NCBI GenBank assembly: GCA_963281255.1
Contig: OY725499.1
Span: 2,364,096 to 2,428,095 of the forward strand
DNA: 64,000 bases
DNA from: Aphrocallistes beatrix
Lineage: Eukaryota > Porifera > Hexactinellida > Sceptrulophora > Aphrocallistidae
Direction of reading: 5' to 3'
The translations under genes and the position numbers were made by a program. Shown in pieces: positions 3,950 through 39,880 of the stretch (the stretch's first letter is position 1; every line of letters starts with the position of its first letter). The notes beneath the pieces were generated by a model. The model did no database searches. It worked only from the letters and a program-made list of their open reading frames with translations, and was not told where the DNA came from.

Positions 3950-4477
3950 TTATATGAGATTTTTATACATCTCGATTTCAGCTAAAAGATAGTTCTTTTC
4001 ATTTTCATACTCTCGTTTCACATGGGTCAAGACTTCAATATCCGTTTGTTCACAGAAAACTCTTCTGGGAGAATTTTTGTAAACTTCGATTTGAGCTAAA
4101 AGACACACCTTCTTATCCTCAAAGTATCGTTTCCTACACTTTAGGAGTCCAATCTCTTCCTCGTCTTTGATAACTCCTCTGGGATTGGAACTACTTACTC
4201 TCTTCTTCTTCTTCTTATCTGCATATACCCGTGAGGCCACCCTACCTTTCAATTTCCTCCGAAGTTCTCTAATGATTGCATCTGCCTTAGTATTCAATAT
4301 GCTCGAAAACCTACCTTCTGTAATAAGTTCGTCTAGCTCAGAAAATTTAATTTTCCGTACTTTCAATTCATCCAACTGTTCGCTTATATGTTCACAATTT
4401 ACTACCGATATGCCATCTTTTAGAATGGATTTTATTAGGTAATTACCAGAATTAGTATTATATATTGATTGAGACAT
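3950..4477 (-). CDS. bZIP-like basic/coiled-coil protein, tandem copy B
   Basis: A 175-residue paralogue of the 1785-2321 gene with the same architecture: a divergent N-terminal 65 residues, a basic segment (RELRRKLKGRVASR plus lysines), and two coiled-coil repeats ending LLAEIEMYKNLI. The C-terminal two thirds differ from copy A at only a handful of residues, one of them a single-residue length change in the lysine run. DNA identity continues through the 3' flank down to about 3871. Both copies are open over full length, so neither looks dead. The mosaic of a divergent front and a homogenised back suggests gene conversion or selection on the N-terminus. Confidence 0.6.
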   Translation of the reverse strand: MSQSIYNTNSGNYLIKSILKDGISVVNCEHISEQLDELKVRKIKFSELDELITEGRFSSILNTKADAIIRELRRKLKGRVASRVYADKKKKKRVSSSNPRGVIKDEEEIGLLKCRKRYFEDKKVCLLAQIEVYKNSPRRVFCEQTDIEVLTHVKREYENEKNYLLAEIEMYKNLI

Positions 4478-15670: not shown

Positions 15671-18037
15671 ATGGCGAGTCAAAAGAGAATTGTATTAACC
15701 GGTTTGGTGGGATTCTGCAAGAAGTCTATTAAACACGACTCCCTGCCTCTGAAGCGGGTTCAGCTCACCATACAGACCAGATGCGTGCTGGCGAGCATAG
15801 AAGCAGTGCTGGAGTACTGCAATGATGCAGCAGCTCCGATGGAAGTGGAGTTTGTCCTGCCGATGGACTCCGTCTCAGTGGTCACGGGGCTGAGTGCGCG
15901 CTTGGAGGGAAGAGAAGTGAGGGGAGTGGTCAAGAGGAAGGAGGAGGCGAAAGACGAGTACGACGATGCAGTGTCCAGCGGTCAGACCGCAGTCTATGGA
16001 GAGCAAGAAGGGAAGGACTTGTTCAAGATGGTGCTAGGCAACCTGTCGGTAGGAGGGAGTGCCGAGCTACGGCTCAGTCTCCTACAAGAGATGGAGCGAG
16101 AGGAGACAGAGGATGGAGAGACGGGAGCTCTGAGGTTCTGTCTCCCTACAACGCTCAAACCAAGGTACATCCCGTCGTCCCCTCCAGGAGTGGCTGGGCC
16201 AGGCGTCGCTAGCAGCGAGGGGACAGGAGTCAAGTACGAGTTGAGCGTGGGGATGGTAGCAGAGTACGCAGGGGGACTGTCCAGAGTTGAGTCTCCCTCG
16301 CACAAGATCAGCACGGGCATGGTAGAAGGGGGACGGCAGTGGCGGGTCGAGTTGATAGACCCAAACCCCCTGGAAAGAGACCTCGTGATTCTACTCTATC
16401 CGACGCAGCCCTCAGTCCCAGCTCTCATGTGGGGAGGTGCCTCGGCCAGTGTGAAGAGGGAGGAGGGGTCCAAGGTTCACCCATTTACTGCCTCCCGATC
16501 CATGATGCTCTCCTTCCTGCCTCAGTTCGGAGAGGCGGAGAGAGAAGAGGTAGCCACTGAGATGATATTTCTCATCGACCGTAGCGGAAGCATGCGAGGA
16601 GAGCCGATAAGAAGCGCAGGAGCTACGCTAGAATTGCTCGTGCGTAGTCTCTCTCTAGGCTGCGCACTCAACATTGTAGGATTCGGGTCCCATTACAATT
16701 CTGTGTTCCCTGGAGAGAGCAGGAACTACGATGAGGCGTGCGTGGAGACTGCAGTCTCCTACGCACGAGCTCTGCAAGCGGACATGGGCGGCACTGAGAT
16801 TCTCTCGCCATTGCAGGACATATTCCGACAGAAGAAGCGACCAGGCTTGCCTAGGCAGGTGATACTCCTGACAGACGGAGCTGTGTCTAACACAGAACAG
16901 GTGATTCGATGTGTCCGGGAGAACCGAGGACAGGCGCGAGTGTTCGCGATCGGTATCGGCTCCGGAGTGTCGACTGCGCTGGTGCGCGGGGTGGCGGAGG
17001 CGGGGGGAGGCAGAGCGGTGTTTGTGAGTGAGGGCGAGCGAATGCAGGGCAAAATCCTGAAACTGCTGAGTGACGCGATGACTCCTTGCTACACGGACGT
17101 AGCGCTCAGTGTTAGCGGAGAAGGTCTGAGGCTCTTTCCTAGCCAGCTGCCTCAGCTGTTCCCACAGGACCGACTGCTGGTGTACGGCCTGCTAGCGCCG
17201 GGAATGAGTGTGGAAGGACACACAATCAGTTTGCAGTACAAGCAAGGAGAGCGGAAGTATTCACACCTTGTGTCGCTAGATGCGAGCAGTGGAGAGGCCG
17301 TGAGTGGGGAGTGGATACACAAGCTGTGTTGTAGTGCGGTGCTGCGTGAGTGGGAAGGAGCAGAGGAGAGGGAAGAGGAGTGTGTACAGTTGAGTTGTGA
17401 CACTAACCTGGTGTGTAGGCACACCGCACTGGTGGGAGTAGACTCGGAGGAGGGACGGGTTGTGCCTGGTTCGATGCAGCACATTAAACTGAAATCTGTT
17501 TTGTTCGGTGGGATGTTGAAAGGTGTCAAGCAACATCGCGGTGCCGTGATGATGATGAGATCAGCTCCTAAGTTAGCTGCTATGGGAGGGAGAGGAGGAG
17601 GAGGAGGAGGAGGAAGCAGAGGTAGGGGGAGAGAGAGGAGTGCGGTGCCTGAACAACAAATAGATTTGAGAAAAAAAAGCAAAAGCAAAGAGTCTAAAAC
17701 AGTTCCAATATCCAACAAGATAGGAGGCCCTCCCCCTGGCCGCTCTACACATGAAGAACTGATCTCCCACCAGACAGCACAGGGATACTGGAACAAGAGT
17801 GAGAATGTGGACAACCTGCTGCAGCTGTCTCCACACACAGAGAAACTCTGTCCTCAAGGAGTGGGAGAGAGGGAATGGACCACTCTTCTCTGTTTGCTAA
17901 CGTTAGAGCTCAAGTTCGCTGCGTTTAAAGATGAGTGGCAACTAATAACCAAGAAAGGATGGAAATGGTTGAAATCATCTCAGCTGCCTGTGAGTCTGGA
18001 AGTGGCTACTGATGCCGCGAGACAAGCTGTGCAGTAA
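15671..18037 (+). CDS. VIT/vWA domain protein, VWA5A-like
   Basis: 788 residues in a single exon. Residues of about 15-140 form a VIT domain, with the characteristic EEAKDEYDDAVSSGQTA and LFKMVLGNL segments. The vWA domain covers about 293-465, with an intact MIDAS (IDRSGSMRGEP, DxSxS) and LLTDGAVSN. A Gly/Arg low-complexity stretch (about 640-660) and a lysine-rich linker follow. The C-terminal 100 residues hold a conserved-looking helical segment (WTTLLCLLTLELKF) like that of VWA5A and the corresponding region of PARP4. These are intracellular proteins. VWA5A (BCSC-1) has been described as a candidate tumour suppressor of unclear biochemistry. A polyadenylation signal AATAAA at 18083 follows the stop by 46 bp. 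A second, structurally different VIT/vWA gene is at 35603-38392. Confidence 0.85.
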   Translation: MASQKRIVLTGLVGFCKKSIKHDSLPLKRVQLTIQTRCVLASIEAVLEYCNDAAAPMEVEFVLPMDSVSVVTGLSARLEGREVRGVVKRKEEAKDEYDDAVSSGQTAVYGEQEGKDLFKMVLGNLSVGGSAELRLSLLQEMEREETEDGETGALRFCLPTTLKPRYIPSSPPGVAGPGVASSEGTGVKYELSVGMVAEYAGGLSRVESPSHKISTGMVEGGRQWRVELIDPNPLERDLVILLYPTQPSVPALMWGGASASVKREEGSKVHPFTASRSMMLSFLPQFGEAEREEVATEMIFLIDRSGSMRGEPIRSAGATLELLVRSLSLGCALNIVGFGSHYNSVFPGESRNYDEACVETAVSYARALQADMGGTEILSPLQDIFRQKKRPGLPRQVILLTDGAVSNTEQVIRCVRENRGQARVFAIGIGSGVSTALVRGVAEAGGGRAVFVSEGERMQGKILKLLSDAMTPCYTDVALSVSGEGLRLFPSQLPQLFPQDRLLVYGLLAPGMSVEGHTISLQYKQGERKYSHLVSLDASSGEAVSGEWIHKLCCSAVLREWEGAEEREEECVQLSCDTNLVCRHTALVGVDSEEGRVVPGSMQHIKLKSVLFGGMLKGVKQHRGAVMMMRSAPKLAAMGGRGGGGGGGSRGRGRERSAVPEQQIDLRKKSKSKESKTVPISNKIGGPPPGRSTHEELISHQTAQGYWNKSENVDNLLQLSPHTEKLCPQGVGEREWTTLLCLLTLELKFAAFKDEWQLITKKGWKWLKSSQLPVSLEVATDAARQAVQ

Positions 18038-35602: not shown

Positions 35603-38392
35603 ATGTTAGGACTGCACACTAATGAGGGTAGTCAAATCCCATTAAAATCCATATTTGCGGATGTTCAAATAGCTGACTACACTGCCAAAGTGAATCTCAC
35701 TCAAACCTATAAGAATGAATTTGATGATTCTATCGAGGCGACTTATAATTTCCCTATCACAGATAATTCAGCAGTCACAGGTTTCACGGCTAAGATCAAT
35801 GACAAGATAATCCGAGCCGAGATAAAAGAAGACGAAGAAGCGAAGCAAGTGTATGATGATAGTGTAGCATCAGGACAAGGTGCCTACCTTTTGCAACAGA
35901 CTTCAGATGATATTTTTACCATGTCCGTTGGGAATCTTCCTTCAGGTGCTGTAGTCGAGATTGAGATATCTTACATTTGCGAGTTGAAAGGGTCGGGAGA
36001 AGAGAAATCACCACATGTTATCTTCACCATTCTCACTACAATGTTGCAACCTTATGGACCCGACCAAGCCACTCTCCCAGTAATATTAGCTCGTAGACCT
36101 AAAGTTAGTTATACTTTCGATGCGCACGTCGTCGCCAAAATGCCTTGTAAGATTACCAAAGTCAATTGCACTACGCATCACTGCAACGTCACACACAACT
36201 CAGATGAAGAGTTTGAGCTGTCCGTTAAAAAAACTTCTCAACATGTTATAAACAAAGGCTTCATTGTGGAGGTCTATCTGAAGGACCCACATAAACCGAG
36301 GTTATGGAGTGAAAGGCGACCGGATGGCAGTGTCGCATTAATGCTAGCTACTTATCCTGATATATCTTATAAGCAATTATCGACTGAGATAATATTCGTT
36401 ATTGATCGGTCTGGGTCAATGGGAGGAGAACCAATTTTACAGGCCCGAGAAACGCTACTAACTTGTCTTAAAATGCTACCAGAAACAGTGCTTTTCAATA
36501 TTATTGGTTTTGGATCCGATTATCATGCTTTGTTTCAAAAGTCCCAGGAAGCAAGAGGAGCAAGTCTTAAAAAAGCGATAGCCCATACTTCAAAACTAGC
36601 TGCTAACCTCGGCGGTACCGACATCTTACCTCCTCTTGAATATATCTACCAGCAAAAACACATTCCAGGCACTCCAAGAAACGTTTTTGTCCTAACAGAT
36701 GGTGGAGTAAGTAACATGGATGATGTTAAAAAGTCCGTCCAGAAAAATTCCGATTCGACCCGTGTTTTTTCTTTTGGGATTGGTAGTGGGGTTTCTGAGA
36801 GTTTAGTTAATGGCATAGCTCGACTTGGCAAAGGTAAAGCAGTTTTCACTCGTAACATCACTGAACTACAAGGCATCGTATCCAGCCAAGTGCAGGCAGC
36901 TCTACAGCCAGCTCTGACGAATGTGAGAGTCACTTTCGATGGAATTAATATTGCGCAGTATGCTCCTAGCAATCTACCCCCGATATTCAACCTAGAACAG
37001 TATATTGTATATGCGTTTAGTGAACCGGATTATAAAGGAAATTTGAACAATGTTGTAGTAACTCTAAGTGCTGTTAATCCAAGTAAAAAGGAAATTAAAT
37101 ACAAACTCAAACTCACAGCCATAACGAACCTTTTCACTTCTGGTGAGCAGTTCATTCAGAAGTTAGCTGCCAGATCTCTGATACAAGAACTCCAAGAGAT
37201 TAGTTGTCTTCATGAATCTGATCGCAAAGACGAAATAAAACAGAAGATAATAGACCTAGGACTGACCTACTCTCTAGCAACTAAGCACACTAGTTTTGTC
37301 GCGGTAGAGGAAAGAGATCAAAGCACTATTCAACAAGCTCCGATGCAACAAGTTGAAGTACCTCTCCCAGTTCCAAGTGGAAGTAGCTTACCCACCAGAA
37401 GGGCTGGAGGGTTTGCTCATAAAATTGACAATTCTCTGTTCAAATTCAACTCTTTGTTTGCCTCGTTGCCCAATATTGTTACGCGTAGTCAATCTGCAAA
37501 GATGTTGACAGAACTTAAATCGAACCGTAAGCGTACCTGTTCACAAGAGTGCTCTCTCAGCTCAGATCTTAAAGTTTCCAGACAGTCACATTATGATTTA
37601 CGAGATTTCCCATTTAGAAATGTACTTCAGACTTCTCTAGATATACCTTTGACCAAATCTCCCAGCTCATTTACTGATTCCTGCATCACTTTTGCATTAA
37701 AGGGTCCAGTGCTGGATTCTAAAAGTTTCACCTGCTGGCTAGACGCATCAATTGCATTTTTGATCTCAATCAGACCCTTGAAACAGTCCATTATGTCATT
37801 CCTGAATGCTGAACTCCAACATAATTCATTTTTAAATCAATTGGCCACTGTTATTGAGGTTTGGTGTGATTATGATAATTCTGAGCGTTCGTGGCGATCC
37901 AGATTGAATAGTGAATACAAAACACTCAAAGATATCCTGCGAACATTTGGATTCTCATTTTCGAAAGAGACTAGCCCAGGAGAATTTATTCAATTTACAC
38001 TTAATGCTGTTTCAAAAATCACTCAAACCACGTGTCTACTCTTCCCTTCTCTTGAAGACTTTTCGCAAAAGATTCCACAAGAAAATATTCAACATGTTAT
38101 TATAGAGAATAGCCATCACTTCCCTGGGATTTTACCAAAAAATTGGAAATTATCGTCTCTCATCCACATGTCTAATGTTGAGTATAGAGGAGGAGAATCT
38201 CCATTTTGTGGCCATTTCAGTATGTTTGCTTTGGACAATTCACCAACTGGCTACATAATCTATGATTCGATGCTTACTCTTTATCCGGGAAATTTCCAAG
38301 GTGGATATGTGGCTGATACTGAGTCAGTCTACCAGACTGTTATGGATGAAGTGATGGATAGTGTTGTAGTTTATTCTCTCGCACGAGTTTAG
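35603..38392 (+). CDS. VIT-vWA protein with a C-terminal USP/USPL1-like cysteine-protease domain
   Basis: 929 residues, one exon. Residues 1-125 form a VIT domain, with EEAKQVYDDSVASGQGA and IFTMSVGNLPSGA. The vWA domain covers about 258-425, with an intact MIDAS (IDRSGSMGGEP, Asp at about 267) and VFVLTDGGVSN. It resembles VWA5A/PARP4 in these parts. After a Ser-rich linker (about 600-690), the last 230 residues are different. SFTCWLDASIAFLISI has the shape of the catalytic Cys box of ubiquitin- and SUMO-specific proteases (Cys711). GGESPFCGHFSMFAL (His871), then GYIIYDSM (Asp888), matches the late His and Asp of that fold. The spacing (160 then 17 residues) is short for a USP but reasonable for USPL1-type minimal domains. 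A protease activity on ubiquitin or SUMO is inferred. The vWA part is much like the gene at 15671-18037, but the C-termini are unrelated. Confidence 0.8.
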   Translation: MLGLHTNEGSQIPLKSIFADVQIADYTAKVNLTQTYKNEFDDSIEATYNFPITDNSAVTGFTAKINDKIIRAEIKEDEEAKQVYDDSVASGQGAYLLQQTSDDIFTMSVGNLPSGAVVEIEISYICELKGSGEEKSPHVIFTILTTMLQPYGPDQATLPVILARRPKVSYTFDAHVVAKMPCKITKVNCTTHHCNVTHNSDEEFELSVKKTSQHVINKGFIVEVYLKDPHKPRLWSERRPDGSVALMLATYPDISYKQLSTEIIFVIDRSGSMGGEPILQARETLLTCLKMLPETVLFNIIGFGSDYHALFQKSQEARGASLKKAIAHTSKLAANLGGTDILPPLEYIYQQKHIPGTPRNVFVLTDGGVSNMDDVKKSVQKNSDSTRVFSFGIGSGVSESLVNGIARLGKGKAVFTRNITELQGIVSSQVQAALQPALTNVRVTFDGINIAQYAPSNLPPIFNLEQYIVYAFSEPDYKGNLNNVVVTLSAVNPSKKEIKYKLKLTAITNLFTSGEQFIQKLAARSLIQELQEISCLHESDRKDEIKQKIIDLGLTYSLATKHTSFVAVEERDQSTIQQAPMQQVEVPLPVPSGSSLPTRRAGGFAHKIDNSLFKFNSLFASLPNIVTRSQSAKMLTELKSNRKRTCSQECSLSSDLKVSRQSHYDLRDFPFRNVLQTSLDIPLTKSPSSFTDSCITFALKGPVLDSKSFTCWLDASIAFLISIRPLKQSIMSFLNAELQHNSFLNQLATVIEVWCDYDNSERSWRSRLNSEYKTLKDILRTFGFSFSKETSPGEFIQFTLNAVSKITQTTCLLFPSLEDFSQKIPQENIQHVIIENSHHFPGILPKNWKLSSLIHMSNVEYRGGESPFCGHFSMFALDNSPTGYIIYDSMLTLYPGNFQGGYVADTESVYQTVMDEVMDSVVVYSLARV

Positions 38393-38663
38393 GTGGCATG
38401 ATAGTTGCATGGTATTGTTAGTTATGAACACTAGGTTCGCGAACTAAACAAGGGACATCTCTACAACTTCTATTTCCATTGCATGTCTTTAAGCTTACTT
38501 ACAGGCTTAACGGTTTGAATCCTCATAATATTTTATTTTTCTCATTTATCTTATATTTTATCTCTAAGGACATGTCTATATATTTAAATCCGGGGAAATA
38601 CAAGTAATTTAAGCAGTAGCTAAAGTGATTGTAATGGCATTTATTTTATATTTCCTAGAGTAG

Positions 38664-38783
38664 GGCATGCCTAATTTCTGGGACCATCTAGATACCTAAT
38701 TTCCGGGACGGGATCCCGTCCCGCCCCGGAAATTAGGTATCAGATTTTCTGGAACGGTCCCGTCCCGGAAATTAGGTATGCCC
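38664..38783. mobile_element. Palindromic MITE with 8-bp duplication CTAGAGTA
   Basis: 120 bp flanked by CTAGAGTA at 38656-38663 and 38784-38791. Ends are GGGCATGCCTAATTTC and GAAATTAGGTATGCCC. The interior is GGGACGGGATCCCGTCCC-type palindrome. A diverged relative (CTAATTTCCGGAATGGGAC) lies near 47139-47200. The 8-bp duplication suggests the hAT or P superfamilies. Confidence 0.75.
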
Positions 38784-38791
38784 CTAGAGTA

Positions 38792-39880
38792 CCAGTAACA
38801 TGATATTGTCTTAAATCTTAAAGGTTACGTTTTAATTAAAAAACTCATTTTTCACTAATAAAAACAGTCCCAAATTGGTTACTGGAAAGCAAAAACACCG
38901 AAAAGGCCTATGGCCACGCTTTTAGGGGAAACATATGCAATTGATTAAATTATTCTGAAATTGAATTTTCCAAATTTTCAACTCAAATCCTTCAAGCGGG
39001 AGTTAGAAACAGATGAGAATAGAGCGACCTTCGGAAGCCCTTTAACATGTTATTTAGCTGACCAAATCGGTTCTGAATCACGGTCTAAGGTTGCATTTAG
39101 GAGTATGATGTTTTGAAGACAAAAATATTGTTTGGGCATTAGTAACTAATTTGAGGCTGTATACTAAAAAAATAGTTTTTTACAATTAAATAAAGCCCTT
39201 TTTCGTGATATGCCTTTAAGATTTAAGTCAAGATTCCGTTCCTACCACTCGATAATTTCCTTAGAGTGCCGTTACTGAAACTGTCAGGCCAAACTGAACT
39301 CAAGAGCTCAATTAATAATGTAGGGTATTTCACTATTAGTCTGATTTTCGCACTTTGAAAGTAATAAAATGATTTATTTATGAGTTATTAACATGTGTAT
39401 ATTAGGGTATTTCTGAAAACAATTTTTTTGTAGCAGGAGTTCGCTCTCGTTGCTTTCTGATTTCCCTTGATGATGATACTTGTATATTGCTCAAAAAATT
39501 TCAGCTTCTATCGCTACTGAAAATAACTGTTCAAGAGTTCTCCATTTCTCTAATGTATTCAATATTAATGATATTGGAACTAAAGGCTGTCCTGTTCTAG
39601 TCTCAAATATTTGGTACATAACTTATTTGTTAGATAAACACTGCTCTTATGCTACAAATGAATTTTCATATCATTCTGAGGTGATATCTTTTGAAATATT
39701 GTGTGTGAAATATCCCAATCATGTAGAAATATTTTATATGCCATATTTCCAAAAAATAGACTCAGAATGATATGGAATTTCTTTTGTGTATAATAGCAGC
39801 GTTTTATCAAATAAAATAAGCTCTGTACCAAAAATTTGAGACCAAAATAGGAGACCCTTTAAGTCCCAATATTTCTAATA
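38792..39880. other. Gene-free stretch downstream of the VIT-vWA gene
   Basis: AT-rich. The 96-residue frame at 39480-39770 shows no recognisable domain and is not supported as a gene. Confidence 0.35.

Follow-up and report, generated by a model that had tools for sequence, protein, structure and literature searches.

A VIT-vWA protein of Aphrocallistes beatrix with a putative, very divergent USP-like cysteine protease domain in place of its C-terminal tail

Intracellular proteins that combine a VIT and a vWA domain, such as VWA5A and Vwa1, are widespread, and the functions of their domains are generally unknown according to a survey (PMC10539598). The survey describes a helical C-terminal domain (CTD) in many, not all, VWA5A-type members. 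For Dictyostelium Vwa1, predictions place the CTD against the vWA domain beyond a disordered linker, and an autoinhibitory role has been proposed for it; Vwa1 itself co-precipitates with FbxwD, an F-box protein of an SCF ubiquitin ligase (PMC10539598). A second relevant system is USPL1, a SUMO isopeptidase of peptidase family C98, which in crystals has the ubiquitin-specific protease (USP) fold at <15% identity; it differs from the USPs that act on ubiquitin in having Phe after the catalytic His, Tyr451 in place of a His and no blocking loops, it contacts SUMO through R324, M330, F335 and N398, and its fingers keep a zinc site (PMC8983731). Here we describe a gene from a 64,000-nucleotide stretch of the Aphrocallistes beatrix genome (contig OY725499.1, positions 2,364,096 to 2,428,095; 'the window') that encodes a VIT-vWA protein followed by a putative USP-like domain. 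We favour, with moderate confidence, a reading in which the C-terminal tail of a VIT-vWA scaffold has been replaced by a compact, fingerless cysteine isopeptidase of the USP fold, with the candidate triad Cys711/His871/Asp888.

The gene is a single open reading frame (ORF) at 35603..38392 (+), running from an ATG at 35603 to a stop codon at 38392 and encoding 929 residues, with no internal stops in its 929 codons. The fusion of the VIT-vWA part and the C-terminal domain is real at the DNA level. Across the 720 bases that encode residues 690–929 there are no stops in the coding frame, compared with 11, 23, 14, 11 and 20 in the other five frames. Codon usage in the C-terminal part correlates at 0.82 with that of residues 1–600 of the same ORF, which is weak support because the reverse strand of the C-terminal part also correlates at 0.77. 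The first-pass annotation had recognized a VIT and vWA pair, and both are found by Pfam: VIT at residues 14–124 (35642..35974, +; PF08487, E 1.1e-36) and VWA_3 at residues 262–415 (36386..36847, +; PF13768, E 3.4e-22). The vWA domain has all of the motifs DRSGS (268), GGTD (337) and LTDG (364), which we take to be a complete metal ion-dependent adhesion site (MIDAS). The bacterial VIT-vWA family TIGR03788 of NCBIfam covers residues 19–599 with E 7.7e-86, yet stays under its family cut-off.

The genome searched comprises 100.5 Mb in 28 contigs, with the window on contig C13. It holds 17 matches to the 929-residue protein at E <= 0.001, the protein itself included, which we read as about ten further VIT-vWA genes. 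Seven of these paralogues were examined. Identity to them is about 30% over residues 2–589, and the homology found by BLASTP stops at residues 575–589. A profile search found a common C-terminal tail of about 99 residues in all seven; from its place and its length, we take this tail to be the VWA5A/Vwa1 CTD. A profile of the tail built from five paralogues gave no match in the 929-residue protein, with HMMER filters off and E values up to 100. Past the end of the paralogue homology seen by BLASTP there is a linker (residues 590–689; 37370..37669, +), and after it the protease-like domain (residues 690–929, 240 residues; 37670..38389, +) occupies the position held by the tail in the sister proteins. 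In a tree of the eight full-length proteins, tails included, the protein with the USP-like domain has the longest branch (1.27). The window also contains a second intronless VIT-vWA gene (15671-18037, +; 788 residues), which carries the common paralogue tail; its GC content is higher, about 0.55, and its codon usage shows hardly any correlation with that of the gene studied (0.36 and 0.16).

A putative USP-type domain at the C-terminus, very divergent in sequence, is supported statistically. The domain, as a single sequence, was aligned by hhalign to a profile of nine USP domains from the same genome, obtained from ten loci taken from 65 PF00443 matches; L018, which has no Cys box, was left out. 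The alignment scored 29.4 (P 0.0017 for that comparison), and in its register Cys711 matches the catalytic Cys of the USPs and TSPGEF (residues 790–795; 37970..37987, +) falls on the QQDxxEF box. None of 200 shuffled sequences reached this score (mean 14.6, standard deviation 2.8, maximum 26.6), and the reversed domain sequence scored 20.7. Among the controls, human USPL1 scored 38.2, while 46 segments of other protein sequence encoded in the window, residues 1–690 of the same ORF among them, scored at most 19.2. The N-terminal half of the domain was sufficient for most of this signal, with a score of 28.7 that was reached by 0/200 shuffles. As a separate observation, L015, L016 and L018 belong to a tandem cluster of mostly single-frame USP genes (C17:3630818-3668145, -), which by count holds 13 of the 65 PF00443 matches at >= 100 bits, two of them with internal stops. 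L018 has lost its nucleophile, since GNND replaces GNTC.

The order of the catalytic motifs was then scored with a chain of five boxes (Cys, QQDxxEF, His, Asp and end strand), using box scores from seven USPs, six from the same genome and one viral. Three rows were dropped from this model, L013 because its end was undefined, L016 as a presumed near-copy of L015, and L015 because its second box lay outside the regular expression; L018 was outside the model from the start. The limits on box spacing were wide, but they were chosen with the candidate spacing of the query known. The best chain in residues 690–929 consisted of Cys711, Phe795, His871, Asp888 and Tyr924, with a score of 24.1 that was reached by 0/500 shuffles in one set and 2/3000 in another. 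In 344 windows of other protein sequence the score did not exceed 11.4, and leaving out one USP at a time held the query at 22.0–28.9. For human USPL1, of which the fragment used stops short of the fifth box, the four remaining boxes gave 29.4 and the chain picked the true triad.

The Cys, His and Asp of the best chain lie where the first-pass annotation had placed them: CWLD begins at Cys711, GHF contains His871 and YDSM contains Asp888. Cys711 of the CWLD box (37733..37744, +), the putative nucleophile, is the top-scoring position for the USP Cys block, and Phe795 of TSPGEF is the top position of the second block. His871, the putative general base, is followed by a USPL1-type Phe872 (38213..38218, +) and heads the His block with a score of 6.4, compared with 6.0 and 5.6 for the next positions. 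The seven-USP set is uninformative on Tyr versus Phe after the His, because the anchor expressions demand GHY. Asp888 (38264..38266, +), the putative third triad residue, is the choice of the five-box chain, and VVVYSLAR (residues 921–928; 38363..38386, +), anchored by the chain at Tyr924, is a candidate for the terminal USP strand. The distance from Cys to EF is 84 residues (65–103 in the seven USPs), and that from His871 to Asp888 is 17 residues (15–18). From the second box to His871 there are 76 residues, compared with 128–263 in the seven USPs and 121 in USPL1 in its own numbering, and for this reason the fingers seem to be gone.

Several results of the same two tests weigh against the preferred reading. 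The C-terminal half by itself scored 17.8 in hhalign, a value reached by 9/200 shuffles, in a register that omits His871, and an hhalign comparison with two viral USPs gave P 0.55. In the box test, left-out canonical USPs scored 88–125, and one of the 3000 shuffles scored 31.9 and so exceeded the query. Asp888 is outside the six best single positions of the Asp block, and it lies 36 residues before the end strand, compared with 17–25 in the seven USPs. Without the QQD box the chain replaces His871 by His838 (score 15.0, reached by 5/500 shuffles); a chain limited to the His, Asp and end boxes likewise picks His838 (189/500), and one limited to the His and Asp boxes picks Gly901 and Met914 (69/500). 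Because these sub-chains choose other residues, the support rests on the Cys/QQD-like half together with the order of all boxes, and the assignment of His871 and Asp888 is no more than plausible.

Pairwise similarity of the domain to human USPL1 lay close to noise. With BLOSUM62 and a gap cost of 11, the local score against human USPL1 was 48, compared with 32.8 +/- 5.3 for shuffles, of which 8/500 reached it; over the local settings used, 8, 9 and 14 of 500 shuffles reached the score. Under global settings the numbers were 30, 48 and 113 of 500, which is noise level and counts against the USP assignment. BLASTP with human USPL1 gave E 0.007, a value for that single comparison, and kept the HF..LD stretch in register; BLASTP with a viral USP aligned the Cys box (E 0.010). 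Scans for viral USP loci for a deeper alignment yielded three in the first, two recurring contigs in the second and none in the third. In MAFFT alignments with the viral USPs the C-terminal half was shifted in register or scattered, and GHF fell on a different strand with no catalytic His left, a further point against the proposed triad. An alternative register, in which GHF is the preceding strand, QGGY the His box and the Asp of VMDEV the third residue, is disfavoured because few residues then remain before the chain end, whereas in the seven USPs the end strand begins at least 17 residues after the Asp. The two viral contigs that carry the compact USP genes L030 (1489-2235, 248 residues) and L031 (1471-2235, 254 residues) are 106 and 132 kb long, and the ORF directly downstream of each gene was read as a ribonucleotide reductase small subunit.

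One alternative is a pseudo-protease, in which a domain of USP fold would have lost catalysis and serve only to bind the vWA domain or some ubiquitin-like protein. In its favour, the alternative register sets the USP GGHY on QGGY, which has no His; the GN of GNTC is lost (SFTC), TSP stands where USPs have QQD, and there are no fingers; and the genome holds at least one further USP with a replaced Cys, L018. The domain nevertheless has a full triad at USP-like spacing with the conserved His-aromatic and aromatic-Asp neighbours, and a decaying site would not be expected to retain all triad residues. We regard a pseudo-protease as unlikely, the foremost of the alternatives to an active USP-fold isopeptidase.

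Searches against families, homologues and structures must also be set against the USP assignment. With queries of 929, 300, 224 and 126 residues, Pfam gave no match to USP (PF00443). When a 113-residue fragment starting just before the Cys was used, PF00443 (UCH) ranked first of 24,736 Pfam families with E 0.068, at positions that fit the hhalign register; its 13.2 bits were below the cut-off of 23.9. No NCBIfam family passed its cut-off within the C-terminal domain, Pfam C98 (PF15499) was not listed for the protein at E values up to 10, and the best match of the domain in a PDB sequence search had E 0.74, with nothing of note. No relative of the domain besides itself was found in its own genome, the one eukaryote among the collections searched, or in phages, viral contigs and prokaryote genomes; three matches in the phage search were judged to be due to chance. 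Single-sequence AlphaFold models of residues 676–929 and 703–929 had confidence (pLDDT) values of 34.8 and 37.9 and were unusable. In these very low-confidence models helices come first, strands follow at the His box and just ahead of Asp888, and a helix closes the series; this order is USP-like, a weak resemblance that is no evidence of fold. Foldseek gave no match under E 0.2 with either model; USP4 (both models) and USP18 (one model) were among the first 50 at E 3–6, which is chance level and was discounted as evidence. The first-pass claim of a USP/USPL1-like protease domain is partly supported: the hhalign comparison with USPs of the same genome (0/200 shuffles) and the box chain support a USP-type domain, and the box chain picks the same triad, while no Pfam or NCBIfam cut-off is passed and the His/Asp part is insignificant alone.

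Weak scores of this kind, together with the missing ubiquitin-gripping fingers, would also suit a papain-like peptidase that belongs to a different family of clan CA, one that shares the Cys-His-Asp order by common fold only and cleaves a substrate that is not ubiquitin-like. The Foldseek results include arylamine N-acetyltransferases at E 3.7 and 2.4, beside USP4 and USP18 and likewise at chance level. The best-supported match, however, is USP-specific, with the Cys box and the QQDxxEF box in register, and we place this explanation second among the alternatives and again consider it unlikely. Least credible, and in our judgement very improbable, is a C-terminal extension that folds poorly or is unrelated to proteases and carries its motifs by chance, for which the lack of a family over cut-off, a confident fold or a homologue and the insignificance of the His/Asp half by itself can be cited, since it is opposed by the shuffle and natural-sequence controls and by the ordering of the boxes within a 214-residue stretch of unbroken frame.

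For the active USP-fold isopeptidase that we prefer, we infer an intracellular enzyme acting on a ubiquitin-like tag under the guidance of the vWA domain. Its VIT-vWA part would use either the VIT sandwich or the MIDAS face to contact a partner, which may be a ubiquitin-ligase complex or the substrate of one, in a manner modelled on the Dictyostelium pair of Vwa1 and the SCF component FbxwD. The tethered domain would then remove a ubiquitin or SUMO tag from the bound partner or substrate and, having no fingers, would have to grip the modifier with thumb and palm or with the help of the vWA domain itself. There is a slight lean towards SUMO as the tag, because the CWLD Cys box and Phe872 are the USPL1 states. 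Ubiquitin genes are present in the genome, and locus L020 was read as SUMO. At its most specific, the proposal is that a scaffold of the ligase-binding type traded its autoinhibitory tail for a tag eraser, giving a fingerless, C98-like, vWA-guided deSUMOylase or deubiquitinase in which the vWA domain perhaps replaces the fingers; we offer this tentatively, as one possibility. The first-pass annotation had likewise suggested a vWA-guided deubiquitinase or deSUMOylase, perhaps tied to vault-like or stress complexes. Of this, the USP-type domain is supported, whereas the modifier specificity and the vault or stress link are not shown; a link to vaults is possible, because major vault protein repeats were found in the genome. 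If the reading is correct, the fusion, which is known from one genome, would be independent genomic evidence that VIT-vWA scaffolds act in the writing and erasing of tags, and a USP-type domain without fingers would help to define the elements of the fold that are needed to discriminate ubiquitin from SUMO.

Some further features of the window and the genome were recorded. About 270–400 bases past the stop codon, the window at 38658-38795 contains inverted copies, identified by eye, of a CTAATTTCCGGGACGG-like stretch, which looks like a small inverted-repeat element. The neighbouring ORFs at 1785-2321 and 3950-4477 (-), 178 and 175 residues long, clearly resemble each other, and both have a lysine-rich middle. 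Elsewhere in the genome, C15:555023-584653, mostly on the - strand, holds by count 65 of 95 matches to the ubiquitin-like family PF11976 as divergent tandem repeats in several ORFs, which we read as an extensive array of atypical polyubiquitin-like genes. A long array of short repeats with many open frames in several phases is found at C1:7872701-7873027 (L035). By reading, NHL, SMYD-like and RecQ helicase genes are also present, and the gene content suggests an animal.

Among known systems, the scaffold is closest to VWA5A/BCSC-1 and Vwa1, with which it shares the order VIT then vWA, a likeness of architecture. It differs in that their C-terminal helical domain, the proposed vWA binder and autoinhibitor (PMC10539598), has no match here. 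Like PARP4 (vault PARP), a member of the family according to the same source, it joins a VIT-vWA protein to an enzyme acting on protein modification; that enzyme is an ADP-ribosyltransferase, whereas here it would be a cysteine isopeptidase. The first-pass annotation stated that a domain of this type is absent from known VIT/vWA proteins, and this fits the survey, which names a PARP domain as the added enzyme (PMC10539598). A fusion of VIT-vWA with a USP-like domain was not found in the papers searched, which were judged mostly from abstracts and did not cover most subscription journals. The order of parts in PARP4 differs from that of the gene studied.

The C-terminal domain resembles the USPs (C19, PF00443) in the order of its boxes, in the EF of the second box and in the Cys-to-EF and His-to-Asp distances; it departs from them in the unconserved QQD letters (TSP), in reading SFTC for GNTC and in the shortened stretch between second box and His. 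With USPL1 it shares CWLD at the Cys and, provided that His871 is the catalytic His, Phe872 after it. By eye, Phe795 stands at the place of F335, and Tyr861 (38183..38185, +) before the His is a candidate counterpart of USPL1 Tyr451, which is His in ubiquitin USPs (PMC8983731). This Tyr equivalence is by eye only, and Tyr861 is ten residues from His871, compared with five between Tyr451 and His456. The loop before the His appears longer than in USPL1 and looks USP-length, R324, M330 and N398 have by eye no clear counterpart, and the whole 929-residue protein has no CxxC, so that a zinc site of four cysteines is lacking. Outside its catalytic domain USPL1 shows no further obvious folded domain (PMC8983731), in contrast to the VIT and vWA domains found here. 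USPL1 proper was not detected in the sponge genome: PF15499 gave no match, and the human USPL1 catalytic domain gave only a tandem-repeat match (E 1.8) in an exon-wise search, which can miss it. Because it mixes USPL1 and USP features, has no CxxC and has apparently lost the fingers, the domain, as judged from these motifs, looks like a member of neither USPL1 nor C19 and may represent a third variant of their common fold, reduced in size.

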